From Nitrospirota bacterium (GTDB lineage Bacteria; Nitrospirota; Leptospirillia; Leptospirillales; Leptospirillaceae), in NCBI GenBank assembly GCA_021820445.1, contig JAKADN010000003.1:1-64000 (forward strand): 64,000 bases of DNA. Direction: 5' to 3'. The notes under the pieces were generated by a model. It made no database searches. It saw nothing but the letters and a program-made list of their open reading frames with translations, and was not told the DNA's origin. Made by a program: the position numbers and the translations under genes. Each line of letters starts with the position of its first letter. Position 1 is the stretch's first letter. Positions 55,184 to 64,000 of the stretch are shown here, piece by piece.

Positions 55184-57106
55184 CTACTTGCTCCGCCCCT
55201 TGACGTAGGCCAGTGTTCCACCGGCCCGGACAATCTCGAGGTCCCGTGCCGAAAGCGAATGCTTGACCGGAATCTCGATCTTCTTCGTCAGGTTCTTGAG
55301 CACAAGGGTTCCCTTTTCAAGCCCGGCCGTGCTGAACTCGAGCTGATCGTCCCTGTCGATCTTGTCATAATCGGCTTCGTTGACAAAGGTCAAAGGCAGA
55401 ATTCCGAAGTTGATGAGGTTGGCCAGATGAATCCTGGCAAAGCCTTTCACAATGACGGCCTTCACGCCCAGGTACATGGGGGCGAGAGCCGCATGTTCAC
55501 GACTTGAGCCCTGACCGTAGTTCGTGCCACCCACGATGAATCCTCCGCCGGCTTCCTTGGCTCGCTTCGGGAAGGTCGGATCCACTGATTCGAAGACATA
55601 TTGGGAAATGGCCGGAACATTGGAGCGGAGCGGGAGAACCTTGGCTCCGGCAGGCATGATGTGGTCGGTGGTGATGTTGTCCCCGACCTTCAGAAGAACC
55701 GATCCTGAGACCGTTTCGGAAATGCGATCCCGTGTTGGAAGGGGTTTGATATTCGGCCCGCGAAGGACTTCAACGCCGTGGCCATCCTTCGGGGGGAAGA
55801 TCATCATTCGATCGTCAAGAATATACTTTTCTGGAATCGAGACCTTTTCCGCCTTGACACCCAGGTCACGGGGATCGGTGATGACCCCGGCAATGGCGCA
55901 GGCGGCGGCAACCTCGGGGCTGGCCAAGTAGACTTTGGCGTCCTTTGTCCCGGATCGACCTTCGAAATTGCGGTTGAAGGTGCGGACGGAAACCCCACCG
56001 GACGGAGGCGCAAATCCCATTCCGATACAGGGTCCGCAGGCTGATTCGAGAAGACGGGCGCCTGCGGTGATCAGGTCTCCCAGAACGCCGTTTTGGGAAA
56101 TCATTTCCAGCGTTTGGCGGGACCCGGGAGAGAAGCCGAGGCTGACCGAAGGGTGAACCGTCTTTCCCTTCATGATGGCTGCAATCCCAAGAAGATCCTG
56201 ATAAGAGGAGTTTGTGCAAGAACCGATCGCCACTTGGCTCACAGGGGTGCCCTGAATTTCCCGAACCTTGACGACATTGTCCGGAGAGTGGGGCTGGGCA
56301 ATCAAGGGTTCGAGCGTATTGAGATCGATTTCGACGGTCTCATCATAGGTCGCATCGGCATCGGCGGAAAAGGGGGCATAATCGTTTTCCCGTCCCTGGG
56401 CCTTCAAATACTTCCTTGTTTCTTCGTCCGAGGGGAAAATCGAGGTCGTCGCCCCCAGTTCGGCCCCCATATTTGTGATTGTGGAGCGCTCGGGAACGGA
56501 CAGCCCCTTGACCCCTTCTCCACCATATTCAAAAATTCTCCCCACGCCTCCCTTGACGGTCAGACGCCGGAGAAGTTCCAGGATCACATCCTTGGCCGAC
56601 ACAAAGGGCTGAAGCTTTCCAGTCAGCTTGACCAGAACCACCTTGGGCATGGTGGTATAAAAAGGCTCTCCCCCCATCGCCAGGGCCACGTCAAGGCCTC
56701 CGGCGCCGATGGCCAGCATTCCGAGGCCGCCATTGGTGGGAGTATGGCTGTCGGAACCCAGGAGGGTCTTGCCGGGCTTTCCGAAACGTTCGAGATGCAC
56801 CTGATGGCAGATACCGTTGCCGGGACGCGAAAACACGATCCCATATTTCGCGGCCACCGTCTGGAGGTAACGATGATCATCCGCGTTTTCAAAGCCGGTC
56901 TGAAGCATATTGTGGTCAACATAGGATACGGACAGTTCCGTCTTGACGTGGTCGAGGCCCAAGGCTTCAAACTGGAGGTAGGCCATAGTTCCCGTCGCAT
57001 CCTGCGTCAGGGTCTGGTCGATTTTGATTGCAATTTCCTTTCCGGGAACCATTTCACCGGAAACGAGATGATTCTTGATGATCTTTTGGGTCAGGTTAAG
57101 CGCCAT
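55184..57106 (-). CDS. acn: Aconitate hydratase
   Basis: LLGSDSHTPTNGGLGMLAIGAGGLDVALAMGGEPF; SCTNSSYQDL; ESACGPCIGMGFAP; GTNYGQGSSREHAALAP. Confidence 0.94.
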   Translation of the reverse strand: MALNLTQKIIKNHLVSGEMVPGKEIAIKIDQTLTQDATGTMAYLQFEALGLDHVKTELSVSYVDHNMLQTGFENADDHRYLQTVAAKYGIVFSRPGNGICHQVHLERFGKPGKTLLGSDSHTPTNGGLGMLAIGAGGLDVALAMGGEPFYTTMPKVVLVKLTGKLQPFVSAKDVILELLRRLTVKGGVGRIFEYGGEGVKGLSVPERSTITNMGAELGATTSIFPSDEETRKYLKAQGRENDYAPFSADADATYDETVEIDLNTLEPLIAQPHSPDNVVKVREIQGTPVSQVAIGSCTNSSYQDLLGIAAIMKGKTVHPSVSLGFSPGSRQTLEMISQNGVLGDLITAGARLLESACGPCIGMGFAPPSGGVSVRTFNRNFEGRSGTKDAKVYLASPEVAAACAIAGVITDPRDLGVKAEKVSIPEKYILDDRMMIFPPKDGHGVEVLRGPNIKPLPTRDRISETVSGSVLLKVGDNITTDHIMPAGAKVLPLRSNVPAISQYVFESVDPTFPKRAKEAGGGFIVGGTNYGQGSSREHAALAPMYLGVKAVIVKGFARIHLANLINFGILPLTFVNEADYDKIDRDDQLEFSTAGLEKGTLVLKNLTKKIEIPVKHSLSARDLEIVRAGGTLAYVKGRSK

Positions 57107-57256
57107 TGCTTAATCTCCTTGGCAGGGGATGGGTCCACACATCCGGGGACTAGATTCGTCTCTCATCCGATGAGAGAGCCCCGGCAACAAACACGCACCT
57201 CAAAAAACAATTTGGGCGCGGAATCGCGTCCAAATATTTTATCCTGATTTTATGGC

Positions 57257-57304
57257 AAAAAAAAGCCCCCATTTTTGGTCCGAAAAATGGACAAAAAATG
57301 GGGG
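57257..57304 (-). terminator. Intrinsic terminator (minus strand)
   Basis: CCCCCATTTTT...AAAAATGGGGG hairpin followed by T8 on the minus strand. Confidence 0.85.
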
Positions 57305-57340
57305 AAGAAGAGAGATTTTAAGAAAGTAAGAAAAAGTTCT

Positions 57341-57505
57341 TTATGGCCAAAGATGGGTCGCTGAACCCGGCAACCAAGCTTTCATGTGGTTTGCACTTTC
57401 GGCCCCTTCTCCCAGAAAAATGATGAAAAAGAGAAGCGCCGCCAAAATAATCACACCGCCCACGATCGCAGGTCCCGTTGCCATTTGTGCTCTTTCTTCT
57501 GCCAT
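57341..57505 (-). CDS. 54-aa single-TM small protein, not in the ORF track
   Basis: Manual translation MAEERAQMATGPAIVGGVIILAALLFFIIFLGEGAESANHMKAWLPGSATHLWP*; GAAGGA ahead of ATG; terminator downstream. Confidence 0.65.
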   Translation of the reverse strand: MAEERAQMATGPAIVGGVIILAALLFFIIFLGEGAESANHMKAWLPGSATHLWP

Positions 57506-57536
57506 TTTCCTTCACCCCCCTTCGATTGATTAGCCC

Positions 57537-58520
57537 CTAGAATGTGGAGTAAAGGGGCTTCACATGCTCGGTCGTGCTGTCCTCGAAATCACGAGGAACC
57601 CCGAGCGATTCTATTGCCTTCACAAGATCGTGGTAGTAAAAGGCAACCTTCACGGGATATTTTTTTCCCGCCGCTTCAAGCCGGGCAATCTTGTCAGTCG
57701 CCTTGCCCATGCCGCGCTCCACGATGGCCCCGGCATGCCCAAAGGCGACCCCTTCCGGCATCCGCTCCTGGAATCGGCCCGAGATAAAGGCCGCTACCGG
57801 CTTGTCAAAGCCACCAGAAAGAATCAGGTCAGCAACCTGTTCTTCGTAAGAGCCCCCCGGCTCACCCAGCATGGCAACACCCTTGACCCGGGGATCCCCT
57901 TTGATCTCTTTCAGCACGTCCGCATAGGTGGTATTGGAGATGATATCACCACCAATAGCCAGCGCCATGTAGGTTCCCCATCCGCGCCGCCGGAACATTT
58001 CAGCGGTCGTGACGGTCAGACCGCCGCTCTTGGAAATGACCACAATGCCACCGTCCCGGAATGCAACCGAAGGATCCTTTCCTCCGATGGCTCCAACCCG
58101 GCCGACGGAAGGAACGAAGCACCCGAGACTTGTCCCTCCGACAATAATGGCTCCCCGACGAACCTTCTCCTGGTAAATAATCTCCGAATCACGAATGGGG
58201 ACATGTTCGGTGATAATATACAGAACCTTGATTCCATTGTCCAGACACTCCATGACCGCATCCAGCACAGAAACGGGGGGCACGTAGATCAGGGCGGTGT
58301 TCAGAAGCTTTCCGACCTTCGGATCGCTGACCGCCTCTTTCAGGGTATCGAATACCGGAACCGGCAATTCGGTCGAGCCTCCCTTTCCGGGAGTAATCCC
58401 CGCCTTGACGATCCCGGGGTAGAGAGCCTCCGACTCCTTGATTACCTGGGAGGCCTCACGGCCGGTAGCCCCAATCACGACAATACCCGTCTTGTCATTC
58501 AGATAGACAGTTCCCTTCAA
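57537..58520 (-). CDS. ccsB: Citryl-CoA synthetase small subunit-like (SucD paralogue)
   Basis: IVVIGATGREASQVIKESEALYPGIVKAGITPGKGG; FGHAGAIVERGMG; TTG start inferred. Confidence 0.75.
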   Translation of the reverse strand: MKGTVYLNDKTGIVVIGATGREASQVIKESEALYPGIVKAGITPGKGGSTELPVPVFDTLKEAVSDPKVGKLLNTALIYVPPVSVLDAVMECLDNGIKVLYIITEHVPIRDSEIIYQEKVRRGAIIVGGTSLGCFVPSVGRVGAIGGKDPSVAFRDGGIVVISKSGGLTVTTAEMFRRRGWGTYMALAIGGDIISNTTYADVLKEIKGDPRVKGVAMLGEPGGSYEEQVADLILSGGFDKPVAAFISGRFQERMPEGVAFGHAGAIVERGMGKATDKIARLEAAGKKYPVKVAFYYHDLVKAIESLGVPRDFEDSTTEHVKPLYSTF

Positions 58521-58549
58521 GAGATTCCCCCTCAGTATGATTTGAAAGC

Positions 58550-59800
58550 CTAGACGACCTGCTCCGGCTTGTATCCTACATGCTTGATCATGAGCTCTTT
58601 CAGTCGGATGGGCGCTTCCGTGATGGGAAGCTGCGAATCGTATATCTCCCCACGGATTCCATTCCGGACAAAGCATTCGTGAAGCATCTTGAGCCCCTTG
58701 ACATATTCGGGACCGGACCGCCGGACAACCCAGACAAGGTTCTTGTCGAGCTTTCCTTCGGCATTCATGTCGTCAAGCGCCTTGGCCAGACCTTCGCCCA
58801 GGGTCACATCGATCCGGGTGTTGCTGGCCGTTCCGCCGCAGACAAGGACCCCCTTCAAGCCGGGCTTCGACAGAATGATCCTTGAAATCCGGTACATTTT
58901 TTCCGCAGGCGGATTCCCTCCGATATCGGTCAGATTGGCGATTCGAAGGCCGGCCTCGATCGCAGTTTCCGCCGTCACCGTTGAACCACCACCGCCAAAG
59001 GTCATCATCGCGATGTCTCCGTCGAGCTCCACATAGGAGCCCGCCTTGCCCCGATGATCTCCCTGGTCGATCAGGATCGCATCCTGCTCACGCTGCGTCA
59101 GCGGACGGCCCTGAGCGCTTCTCGCTCCATAGATGACCGCCGGATTAACGGAAGCGTCATCATCGAGAATGACGACGGCGTCAGCGGCCACAATTTTCCT
59201 CTTGTCTCCGGAGCGGGCCACAACGAGGGGATTGATCTCGAGAAGTCGGCTTTCCGATCCCCAAAATGCATTGTAGACACTGACGATCACCTCAGAAAGC
59301 GGGCGAAGAAGCTCCTTGTCGGAGAATCCGATGCCGACCAAAAACTGGCGGATCTGATAGGGATAGACGGATCTCACATCGGAGACGACATAGGTATGGA
59401 TCAGTTTCGGATCGATTTCCTCGACATCCATTCCGCCATGTTCGCTGAAGATAATTGCGGGAGCTCTATCCTTCGTGGAATAGGTAACGCTCAGATAGAA
59501 CTCCTTTTCGATGTCTAGCTTTTCCTCGACAAGAGCCCCGATCGACTTTTCACCATAAACCTCCCGGGTTGCCAGGTCAGAAAAGACCTTTTCAACCTGG
59601 GACTTATCGGAAACGACCTTGACGGCTCCGGCCTTTCCACGTTTTCCGACCAGCACCATCGACTTGATGACGACTCCCGGCTCTTTCTCGACAAACTGGC
59701 GGACTGCATCATTCATCTCCGCGGAAAAGACATAACGAGGGACGGGAATCTTATACTTCTTGAAGATGGCTCCCAGTGCCTCGTGCTCATAAAGCTTCAT
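58550..59800 (-). CDS. ccsA: Citryl-CoA synthetase large subunit-like (ATP-grasp, SucC paralogue)
   Basis: MKLYEHEALGAIFKKYKIPVPRYVFSAEM; FGGGGSTVTAETAIEAGLRIANLTDIGGNPPAEKMYRISRIIL; paired with ccsB and ccl. Confidence 0.75.
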   Translation of the reverse strand: MKLYEHEALGAIFKKYKIPVPRYVFSAEMNDAVRQFVEKEPGVVIKSMVLVGKRGKAGAVKVVSDKSQVEKVFSDLATREVYGEKSIGALVEEKLDIEKEFYLSVTYSTKDRAPAIIFSEHGGMDVEEIDPKLIHTYVVSDVRSVYPYQIRQFLVGIGFSDKELLRPLSEVIVSVYNAFWGSESRLLEINPLVVARSGDKRKIVAADAVVILDDDASVNPAVIYGARSAQGRPLTQREQDAILIDQGDHRGKAGSYVELDGDIAMMTFGGGGSTVTAETAIEAGLRIANLTDIGGNPPAEKMYRISRIILSKPGLKGVLVCGGTASNTRIDVTLGEGLAKALDDMNAEGKLDKNLVWVVRRSGPEYVKGLKMLHECFVRNGIRGEIYDSQLPITEAPIRLKELMIKHVGYKPEQVV

Positions 59801-60315
59801 CGGCTCTTGACTCCTTGAAATTGGGTATCGGAAGGGAATTTCATCTGCCGCTTATGGGAAAATTCCGCAGTATGATACTGAACAATGGGGGTCCGAGTCA
59901 AATCCGATAAGCCAAGATCACGAATTAGGGACCGTGGTGATCCTCCGGAAGAGATCCATGACGCCGACGGGCGAATCGCAAGTCCCATCCCGTCCGGACA
60001 GCAAGAGCCACATACATTCATCGGAACGGAGATCCTCGTCCCGAGTCAGAACGAGGTTTGATAGACGAAACCAGAAAGCGATCAGGGAGAATAGGTCTCG
60101 GAAATGGGGATCGACAGCCCGGGCAGAACGGGAGGGGCGCATCGGCCCCTGTTTTTGTGTCGGAATCTTTTTTGCCGGATCAGGCACACGAGGAGGAAAG
60201 CCCTTGAAAAGAAGCTCACGAAAAACCAACGGATTCTGAAAGACTCATAGCCCGCAAGATGTCGCTGAGCTGACTTGGGCAGGTCATGAAAGATCGGATG
60301 CGCCCCAAAAGACCC

Positions 60316-60370
60316 TTGACCGCTCTGAATGGCTTTGTTATGTTTTTAAGGTGAACAAATGATCACCTTA
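60316..60370 (+). promoter_or_regulatory. lexA promoter with 24-bp palindromic candidate LexA operator
   Basis: TTGACC-N17-TATGTT (60316-60344), then TAAGGTGA-N8-TCACCTTA (60347-60370) over the predicted TSS. Confidence 0.7.
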
Positions 60371-60394
60371 GCACCATATGGAGCCGGGACCGCT

Positions 60395-61021
60395 ATGGAG
60401 ACCTCCGGGGAGACACTGACCACCAGGCAGGCGGAAATTCTTCATTTCATCCATCTGCACATCGAACAGCTCGGATACCCCCCCACTCTTCGGGAAATCG
60501 CCAACAAGATGGATATCCGGGGGATCAGCGCCGTCCGGAAACATCTTGATGCGCTGGTTCGAAAAGGGCATCTCATTCGTAGAAAGGGTGCCCGGGCCCT
60601 CGATGCGGAGTCCCTTCTTCCTTCGACAGTCCCGGTCCCCGTTCTTGGCCGCGTTGTGGCAGGCATTCCGGTCAACGCAACGGAAAACCGTTTGGATACC
60701 ATCGCGATCGACCCCTCCTGGTTACCTTCCGGACCCGTTTTTCTTCTCCGGGTCAAGGGCGACAGCATGAAACAGGCGGCTATTCTGGATGGCGACTATG
60801 TCCTTGTCCGTGCAAAGGAAACGGCGGAAGAGGGAGCGATCGTGGTCGCCGAGATCGACGGAGAAACAACGGTCAAGAGACTCCGGAAAAAGGGCGGACG
60901 CCTCATCCTGGCTCCTGAGAACCCCGACTACAATGAAATCCCTGTCGCCGAGGGCAGTGCATTCCGCATCGTTGGGACGGTGTGCGGCCTCTTCCGCCCC
61001 TCTCTCGAAGGTTCGCATTGA
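60395..61021 (+). CDS. lexA: LexA repressor (ORF open from 60359; the later ATG is preferred)
   Basis: LTTRQAEILHFIHLHIEQLGYPPTLREIANKM wHTH; cleavage-site-like VVAGIPV; VKGDSMKQAAILDGDYVLV Ser; ETTVKRLRK Lys. Confidence 0.93.
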   Translation: METSGETLTTRQAEILHFIHLHIEQLGYPPTLREIANKMDIRGISAVRKHLDALVRKGHLIRRKGARALDAESLLPSTVPVPVLGRVVAGIPVNATENRLDTIAIDPSWLPSGPVFLLRVKGDSMKQAAILDGDYVLVRAKETAEEGAIVVAEIDGETTVKRLRKKGGRLILAPENPDYNEIPVAEGSAFRIVGTVCGLFRPSLEGSH

Positions 61022-61674
61022 GACAGGCCCCGCTCCCCCCTTCCGGCGCACCTCCCTTGCCGCCACTTTTCCTGCAACAGACCTCGCTGCAATCGCCTCT
61101 CCTCCTGCAGGGAGAAGAACCCCGGCTCGGCATTTTTGTCCACCGCATCGTGGCATCCCGCCTTCTCGATCCGGCCGAATCCGGAAGTTCATGCCTCATT
61201 GTCTGCGGCGACAATGTCTTTCGGCCCGACATTATCGTGCAGAGCGCGAAAGCGGTCGCGATGGATCCGCACACGCTCCTTTCACGCATCCGGATCTCGC
61301 GAGCGGTCACAATCCACCAGTTCCACACGCTTATCGTCTCCCGGATCGCGGAAGAGCTCAAGAGATTCCGGGCATCGCTGATCATTCTGTCCGGTATCCT
61401 CCCCCTTTTTTCGGACGGGGCAGTTTCCGAGAGAGAGTCCTCAGGACTTCTGCTCTCCGTCATGACGACACTTCGCGGGGTCGCGCTCAGGAGAAGCATT
61501 CCCTGCATTCTTCCCGTCGACCGCTGCGAAGCCGTGAAGGACGCCCGTTCCGGGCGCCTCCTCTCTCTCCTGGAATCATTGATCGAGTCGGCAATTCTTC
61601 AGGAGCTGCCAAGGAACGAGAAGTCCGCTCCCCGTCGAATCCCCGGGAAGCTCTTCGCAGACCAGGAGCCCTGA
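61018..61674 (+). CDS. RecA/Rad51-fold-like protein lacking a Walker A motif (hypothetical; TTG start overlapping the lexA stop, ORF open from 60982)
   Basis: CLIVCGDNVFRPDIIVQSAKAVAMDPHTLLSRIRISRAVTIHQFHTLIVSRIAEEL...LIILSGILPLFSD pattern; no GxxxxGK[ST]. Confidence 0.6.
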   Translation: MRQAPLPPSGAPPLPPLFLQQTSLQSPLLLQGEEPRLGIFVHRIVASRLLDPAESGSSCLIVCGDNVFRPDIIVQSAKAVAMDPHTLLSRIRISRAVTIHQFHTLIVSRIAEELKRFRASLIILSGILPLFSDGAVSERESSGLLLSVMTTLRGVALRRSIPCILPVDRCEAVKDARSGRLLSLLESLIESAILQELPRNEKSAPRRIPGKLFADQEP

Positions 61675-61949
61675 TGGGACGGACGCTGCCCACCTTTACA
61701 ATGAACGTCGACCAGACGCTGTCCGACCTCTCCCGATTCCGGAGAGCCCTCAGGCGAGAGGACCAGAGTCTTCTCGACGGCCTCTTCGCCGATGCGCGCC
61801 TTCATGCCCAGGCCGGCGCCTTTCTCTCTCCCGTGGACCCCTTTCCGGTGATCCTGCTCTGCATGCTTCTCGAAGAACGTCGCGAACGCCTCCTTCTCGA
61901 GGGCCGCATCCGGGAAATCGAGGATCGTGGTGAAGGCCATTCGTCCTGA
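61674..61949 (+). CDS. 91-aa hypothetical protein of the lexA-polB operon
   Basis: ATG overlaps the upstream stop (TGATG); MGRTLPTFTMNVDQTLSDLSRFRRALRREDQSLLDGLFADARLHAQAGAFLSPVDPFPVILLCMLLEERRERLLLEGRIREIEDRGEGHSS*. Confidence 0.7.
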   Translation: MGRTLPTFTMNVDQTLSDLSRFRRALRREDQSLLDGLFADARLHAQAGAFLSPVDPFPVILLCMLLEERRERLLLEGRIREIEDRGEGHSS

Positions 61950-64000
61950 AAGAACGGGATGGCTGCTGGATGTCTATCCCGCATCACAAGGCATGCTGCT
62001 CTGGATCCTGAGCGACAAGGGAGAGCGATTCCTCCGTCCAGTTCGATTTTCTCCCCGCTTCTACGCAGATGCGACAGAACGCATTCAGGCCCGGCTTAAA
62101 ACCCTGCTTGGACGCCTCCGTCGTCCTGTTTCCCTCGTCCGAACGGAACGCGTCGATCTCTTTTCCGGAGCCCTCCGCCCCGTCTTCGAACTCACGACGT
62201 TGTCGCCGGCAGATTTTTTCGCGGTGATCAGAGCGGTGTCCTCCATTCCGGAGATCGTCCTCTACAATTGCGACATTCCCCTCCCTCAACTCTATTTCTA
62301 TGAATCCGGGCTTTTTCCTCTCGCATTCTGCCGAATCGACACACTTCCGGACAGACGTGCACTTCTTGACTCCCCCTGGAACACCGATCCCCCCATGCCT
62401 CCTCTCCGGACAATAACCCTTGAGCTCGAATCGGAGGCCCCCCCCGGAAAGCATGGAGCGACGGAAGGACTGGTCGTCGAGAGCGACGGGAAGCGAAGGC
62501 TTCTTGACGGAGAGGATCCCCGGGAACTCCTGGCCACGATCAACGCCATTCTGAAACGGGAGGATCCTGACCTCATTCTCTCCCGAAGGGGCGATGACCT
62601 GATCTTTCCCCGCATTCTGGCGCTTTCTGAAAAGATCGGTATTCCTGTGGCCCTGAACCGGGGAGAAAGGCGGCCGATCTCCCCAGGAAGAGACCGCTCT
62701 TTCCTTTCTTACGGAAAGACTGTTTTTCGCGCAGGCGGTTTTTCCCTTTTCGGACGATGGCACCTGGACCAGAGCAATTCCTTCATCCTGAAGGAAGCGG
62801 GGCTTCCCGGGCTTTTCGAACAGGCCCGCGTCACCCGGATCCCTCTCCAGCAACTCGCCAGAACCTCCACGGGAACCGGCATCACCTCCATGCAGATGGC
62901 GAGGGCCATCGCCTCCGGAATCCTTGTCCCGAAGGACAAGGGGCATCCGGAGGAATTCCGGAGCGGACTCGATCTTGTCGAAAGCGACAAGGGCGGCATG
63001 GTCTTCCTTCCCAGACCCGGCATCCACGAATCGGTCGTGGAACTCGACTTCGCCTCGATGTATCCCTCCCTGATGACGGCCTACAACATCTCCCCGGAAA
63101 CGGTCAACTGTTCCTGCTGCCCTGCCAATCGGGTCCCGGAAAGCGGACACCACCTCTGCACGCGTCGGAGAGGTCTGATCCCTTCGGTTCTCGCCCCGCT
63201 CCTTGAAAAAAGACGCCGATACAAGGAGCTCAAAAAAACGGTGGAAGATCCGTGGCTCAGACAGGAGTACGAGCGACGCCAGGGCGCTCTCAAATGGCTT
63301 CTCGTCGTCTCCTTCGGCTATCTGGGCTACAAGAACGCGCGCTTCGGAAAAGTTGAAGCCCATGAATGCGTCACCGCTCTGAGCCGGGAAAAGCTTCTCC
63401 AGGCGAAAGAGGTCGCGGAAGAGTGGGGATACCACTTTCTGCACGGGATCGTCGACTCGCTCTGGCTGTCGCATCCCGATCTGGACGAAGCCGACTGCCA
63501 ACGTCTCGCCGAAGCCATCTCCCGGACGACCGGCCTTTCCATCGGAGTCGAGGGACTCTACCGCTGGATTCTCTTCTTCCCGTCGAAGGGCCGCCCGGGC
63601 CTCGCCGTTCCCAACCGCTACATCGGCGCTTTCCGCTCGGGCGAAACAAAAATCCGCGGAATCGAACTTCGCCGGAGCGATACCCCCCCTTTTATCGCAA
63701 AAATGCAGCAACGGATCGTCGACCATCTTTCCCTGGCGAGCGATATCGAGGACTACAGGGCCCGCCTTCCCGAAGCCAGACGACTGCTCGAGGAGGGACT
63801 GGTGGAGATCGCGGGAGGTCGCATCCCGGTTTCGGAGCTGGCCATCAGAAAGCGGATCTCGAAGGAGGCAGAATCCTACCGCAAGGCCTCCCTCCAGGCG
63901 ATCGTGGCACAGGAACTGGCGGCTCGTGGAGAAGCACCCCACCCCGGGGAACGCATCTCTTTTGTCATCACCGGCGAGGGAGATCCCGATCCCGCGTCCC
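61930..64000 (+). CDS. Family-B DNA polymerase, 3'-truncated by window end; absent from ORF track
   Basis: Manual translation in frame 1 is open to 64000. Motif A ELDFASMYPSLM, motif B ALKWLLVVSFGYLGYKNARFG, motif C HGIVDSLW; GTG start with GAGG 6 nt upstream. Confidence 0.88.
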   Translation, partial: MKAIRPERTGWLLDVYPASQGMLLWILSDKGERFLRPVRFSPRFYADATERIQARLKTLLGRLRRPVSLVRTERVDLFSGALRPVFELTTLSPADFFAVIRAVSSIPEIVLYNCDIPLPQLYFYESGLFPLAFCRIDTLPDRRALLDSPWNTDPPMPPLRTITLELESEAPPGKHGATEGLVVESDGKRRLLDGEDPRELLATINAILKREDPDLILSRRGDDLIFPRILALSEKIGIPVALNRGERRPISPGRDRSFLSYGKTVFRAGGFSLFGRWHLDQSNSFILKEAGLPGLFEQARVTRIPLQQLARTSTGTGITSMQMARAIASGILVPKDKGHPEEFRSGLDLVESDKGGMVFLPRPGIHESVVELDFASMYPSLMTAYNISPETVNCSCCPANRVPESGHHLCTRRRGLIPSVLAPLLEKRRRYKELKKTVEDPWLRQEYERRQGALKWLLVVSFGYLGYKNARFGKVEAHECVTALSREKLLQAKEVAEEWGYHFLHGIVDSLWLSHPDLDEADCQRLAEAISRTTGLSIGVEGLYRWILFFPSKGRPGLAVPNRYIGAFRSGETKIRGIELRRSDTPPFIAKMQQRIVDHLSLASDIEDYRARLPEARRLLEEGLVEIAGGRIPVSELAIRKRISKEAESYRKASLQAIVAQELAARGEAPHPGERISFVITGEGDPDPAS

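Follow-up and report, generated by a model that had tools for sequence, protein, structure and literature searches.

A predicted LexA operator of the Gram-positive type in the promoter of a Leptospirillaceae lexA-PolB2 operon

LexA boxes and LexA-linked polymerase sets

LexA2 of the imuA-imuB-dnaE2 cassettes is an S24-family repressor encoded beside the error-prone polymerase set that it mainly controls. UmuDAb is likewise an S24-family repressor that adjoins, and mainly controls, a set of this kind (PMC8565304). In L. ferriphilum, a lexA-linked set has been described (LFML04_0990-0993), in the order lexA, iRadA (an inactivated RadA/Rad51 homologue), PPB2 (arCOG07300) and PolB2 (PMC4104785, PMC11791011). 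Modelling has cast the set as a PolB2 mutasome in whose vicinity lexA is enriched (PMC11791011). The lexA-PolB2 operon itself was thus published earlier; these papers describe a link between genes, and a predicted operator is added here. Among open-licence papers, we found no published account of this operon's operator and no literature on LexA motifs in Nitrospira or Leptospirillum.

The LexA consensus of Bacillus subtilis is GAAC-N4-GTTC (PMC4234289) and the ChIP-seq motif of Streptomyces venezuelae is tCGAAC-N4-GNNCGa (PMC9380542). The SOS box of Escherichia coli, CTGT-N8-ACAG, is also a palindromic LexA operator, but its half-sites and spacing differ.

The window that we analysed, a stretch of 64,000 nucleotides, carries on its plus strand an operon identical in gene content and order to that of L. 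ferriphilum (PMC4104785, PMC11791011). The order lexA, iRadA, PPB2, PolB2 is found in the window and in 12/12 relatives, with PPB2 assigned by position and conservation only. The iRadA gene (60982-61674) has a Rad51 Pfam match (9.6e-5) and an uncertain start codon; its open reading frame overlaps lexA, and it occupies the same place in all 12 relatives. PPB2 (61674-61949, 91 aa, arCOG07300-like) gave no match in a Pfam search and is kept between iRadA and PolB2 in each of the 12. PolB2 (from 61927 to the end of the window at 64000 and on to contig position 64209; 760 aa) is a family B DNA polymerase (Pfam DNA_pol_B, 132 bits). Its motif C, GIVDSLW, has the first Asp of DxD substituted, and most PolB2 likewise lack this residue (PMC11791011). 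The polymerase belongs to family B, in contrast with the UmuDAb and LexA2 systems, and no Y-family polymerase was detected in the genus.

The repressor encoded by lexA (60395-61021, plus strand, 208 aa) scores 181.6 bits against the LexA profile TIGR00498 (cut-off 110.95). Its winged-helix DNA-binding domain (PF01726, LexA_DNA_bind) and S24 peptidase domain (PF00717, Peptidase_S24) are both above curated cut-offs, and it aligns across its length with solved LexA. The cleavage site A89-G90 and the S124/K161 dyad are invariant among 11 LexA orthologues. The protein therefore appears to be an intact LexA of the cleavable type. A second LexA-like protein, encoded behind a cheZ gene (L002:1498-2154, in G000:C130), retains the LexA DNA-binding domain but has neither the Ala-Gly site for cleavage nor the catalytic Lys. 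Both are present in the corresponding proteins of other genera in the family (L027, L030, L031, L032), which suggests that this second copy has either decayed or become a non-cleavable repressor.

The lexA promoter and its palindrome

The initial annotation had reported a palindrome at 60347-60370, TAAGGTGAACAAATGATCACCTTA, made of two perfect 8-bp arms separated by 8 nt, and we recovered it exactly (strand not applicable). It lies directly after the -10 element, as had been proposed, at a distance of 2 nt instead of starting 3 nt after it. The predicted promoter, TTGACC-N17-TATGTT, consists of a -35 element at 60316-60321, a 17-bp spacer and a -10 element at 60339-60344, all on the plus strand, and by its sequence is of the conserved, sigma70 type. 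The claim that the palindrome has no second copy also stands: the window contains a single exact GGTGA-N8-TCACC, and the 2.22-Mb assembly as a whole contains no more than one. As a genome-wide motif GGTGA-N8-TCACC was rejected, given this single exact copy and near matches in the window that are no more frequent than in shuffles.

Judged purely as an inverted repeat, the palindrome is unremarkable and within chance. The window holds 4 exact repeats of the 8+8+8 form where 1.8 are expected, and 11% of the shuffles of the intergenic region (59801-60394) hold a repeat with 8-bp arms and a spacer of 0-12 nt. The argument for function comes from the comparison between species.

We aligned the DNA upstream of lexA in the window and in 12 relatives, which are environmental Nitrospirae metagenome genomes (13 species in total). 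G015, a 2.56-Mb genome in a single contig, is from a different genus of the same family. The mean column identity over the 13 species is 0.90 in the -35 element, 0.73 in the -10 element (whose first three bases are TAT in most relatives and TAA or TAG in a few) and 0.88 in the operator core, GGTGAAC-AAAT-GATCACC (60350-60367). These values contrast with those of the neighbouring non-promoter columns: 0.57 in the spacer, 0.47 in the leader and 0.45 upstream. The predicted operator is thus placed in the lexA promoter, right behind its conserved elements, and is conserved in position and sequence although the LexA proteins of the relatives are only 57-90% identical.

The list of open reading frames had lexA starting at ATG 60359, inside the palindrome. 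In the relatives, the conserved start corresponds to ATG 60395, and ATG 60359 is missing in L078 and L079. Therefore, lexA is predicted to begin at 60395, downstream of the palindrome, which gives a LexA of 208 aa and leaves the palindrome untranslated. Transcription should start at about 60351, inside the left arm. The AAGGTGA arm ahead of ATG 60359 nonetheless mimics a ribosome site, and one can conceive of a leader hairpin in the RNA that masks the Shine-Dalgarno-like GGTGA arm together with this ATG and thereby governs the translation of lexA. The resemblance of AAGGTGA-N4-ATG to a ribosome site and the folding from 60347 (z of -2.7) are consistent with such an element, but a transcript starting at about 60351 would lose half of the left arm and form just a 4-bp stem (z of -0.23), so that the full hairpin would require an earlier start. 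Furthermore, the bases of the supposed loop, GAAC...GWTC, are conserved, which a hairpin does not need and which fits a protein dimer on DNA, and the ATG to be masked is the one lost in two relatives, whereas ATG 60395 is kept in the closest ones. We thus regard an RNA element as very improbable.

Box type and conservation of the half-sites

The corresponding position in relatives has the sequence GGTGAACATTTGTTCACC, which includes the Bacillus/Clostridium box GAAC-N4-GTTC. Symmetric versions upstream of lexA are GTAAGGTGAACATTTGTTCACCTTAC (L013), AAGGTGAACATTTGTTCACCTT (L015), GTGAACAAATGTTCAC (L010) and GTGAACAAACGTTCAC (L011), and further versions are GTGAACATTTGTTCAC (L014) and TTAATGGTGAACAAAAGATCACCATTAA (L008). 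The symmetric form is GGTGAAC-N4-GTTCACC, and the core common to relatives is GTGAAC-N4-G(T/A)TCAC. In the window, the half-sites inside this core are GAAC (60353-60356) and GATC (60361-60364), so that GAAC-AAAT-GATC differs at one of eight bases from the exact GAAC-N4-GTTC found at the same place in 5 of the 12 relatives, these five being among the more distant ones. GATC also replaces GTTC in L075, L076 and L078-L080. The outer arms co-vary from clade to clade, being AAGG/CCTT in the window and ATGG/CCAT in L078 and L079, and the dyad is kept. Weaker copies occur in L077 and L082, where the inner GTTC half is gone and only the GGTG and CACC arms persist.

Because relatives carry the symmetric GGTGAAC-N4-GTTCACC, the motif is best read as the LexA box of Gram-positive bacteria (the Cheo box, GAAC-N4-GTTC) extended by GGT/ACC wings, and in the window one base of this box is changed. 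The Streptomyces motif tolerates a change at this base (PMC9380542). The initial annotation had correctly set the motif apart from the E. coli type, but its suggestion of a new GGTGA-N8-TCACC class was not borne out: the 8-bp arms are the outer portion of a box of the GAAC-N4-GTTC type, and the 8-nt spacer conceals the GAAC/GATC pair with one A:A mismatch. In its symmetric form, the box shares with those of B. subtilis, clostridia and actinobacteria the GAAC/GTTC half-sites, the 4-nt spacing, the dyad and the location on the lexA promoter. It differs from them in its longer GGT/ACC wings, the GATC right half of the window copy, the Nitrospirota lineage and an apparently single target instead of a regulon that includes recA. 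The predicted operator is of an ordinary type in an uncommon setting; the type was already known, and its range would extend to this Nitrospirota genus.

The same search on distant LexA genes returned GAAC-N4-GTTC/T boxes in Bacillota and Actinobacteria and GTAC-N4-GTAC in relatives of Caldithrix. Different palindromes accompany some of the nearby LexA genes of Nitrospirota, which indicates that the phylum has no single type of box. In another Nitrospirota lineage (L018:1501-2097 and L017), LexA is followed by iRadA and PPB2 and the palindrome differs (ATACCACACATATGTGTGGTAT), suggesting that the link within the operon persists even as the type of box changes.

The conserved core right behind the lexA promoter supports, at the level of sequence, the proposal of a candidate LexA operator sited for autoregulation. 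Many regulators bind palindromes, and the link to LexA is made by position and by likeness to a known box, so another dimeric regulator might occupy this one; but the core matches the LexA box and sits on the lexA promoter in every examined relative that keeps it, and this alternative is as improbable as the hairpin. Chance is less plausible still, since a repeat of this sort does arise in about one in nine shuffled copies of the region but would not be conserved in position and sequence across such divergent LexA lineages.

The palindrome is thus very probably an autoregulatory LexA operator of the Cheo type, the only strong target here, through which LexA would block lexA-iRadA-PPB2-PolB2 until its RecA-triggered cleavage. 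A LexA dimer on GGTGAAC-N4-GATCACC would cover the predicted transcription start behind the -10 element and block RNA polymerase. Upon DNA damage, RecA filaments would induce the self-cleavage of LexA at Ala89-Gly90 (by Ser124/Lys161), and the derepressed operon would yield a mutagenic translesion polymerase complex. We infer binding, repression, RecA-triggered induction and mutasome function from what is observed: the sequence, its conservation, the promoter geometry, the operon, the cleavage residues and the absence of a second strong site. This would supply the missing control element, as predicted, of the bacterial LexA-PolB2 operon.

Other targets and the neighbourhood of lexA

The motif had also been expected to mark a wider SOS regulon, and this did not hold: no convincing second site precedes recA or the identified repair genes. 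In the genome of the window, a search for GTGAAC-N4-GTTCAC gave 29 sites when two mismatches were allowed (reversed control, 14) and 4 when one was allowed (reversed control, 0). The 28 non-lexA sites at up to two mismatches are mostly inside genes, according to a rough gene call by codon usage, and none precedes an identified repair gene. Seven fall between genes or within short frames of doubtful status; the genes around them encode an M48 peptidase, an Fe-S assembly protein, a PfkB kinase, a DUF4321 protein, an ArsR-type regulator and others, with no repair genes, and these sites were rejected. The best matches in the regions upstream of recA, which follows a gene judged by eye to be pgpA-like, have 5-7 mismatches of 14, i.e., no box. 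Among 14 genomes of the genus, the lexA promoter is the sole recurrent non-coding site at up to one mismatch; the recurring aspS-like and TrkA-like sites are coding and were discarded, as were other one-mismatch sites in relatives (8 of the 9 examined fall within predicted genes).

The initial annotation had taken the absence of the motif upstream of other SOS genes as grounds for refutation. The genome-wide search did find the box absent there, but a LexA with one operon under its control would fail so strict a rule without being any less a LexA. In the absence of a convincing second site, the box appears to serve the lexA-PolB2 operon alone, although the assembly is 88.7% complete and may conceal further targets. 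A search of the 14 genus genomes, most of which are incomplete, for the Y-family polymerase domain (PF00817) gave no match, whereas 11 of 14 control genomes were positive. Such an absence is unusual for bacteria that have LexA and RecA. The lack of a box at repair genes and at recA, together with that of a Y-family polymerase, makes LexA look like a one-operon repressor, a view built on absences that may change with complete genomes. We give roughly even chances to the broader idea that, in this genus, a single operon is all that is left of the LexA branch of the SOS response: LexA would control itself and a PolB2 mutasome of archaeal derivation, recA would escape its control, and a Y-family polymerase would be absent. 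These results point to a minimal SOS response made of one translesion unit, a simple system in which to ask why mutagenesis needs the control of RecA and LexA.

Further upstream of lexA, a block at 59860-59905 is conserved in relatives (TGATACT-AACAA-GGGGGTCC-AGTCAAAT). Read on the minus strand, it resembles a promoter, TTGACT ... TATCAT with a conserved GGACCCCC spacer, and is probably that of the divergent gene at 58550-59800. Encoded on the minus strand at 55184-59800 are an aconitase and two subunits that resemble those of succinyl-CoA synthetase, with scores far under the curated cut-offs. A citrate-binding domain of the ATP-citrate-lyase kind is present in the beta subunit, and the two subunits may form a citryl-CoA synthetase that serves the reverse TCA cycle.
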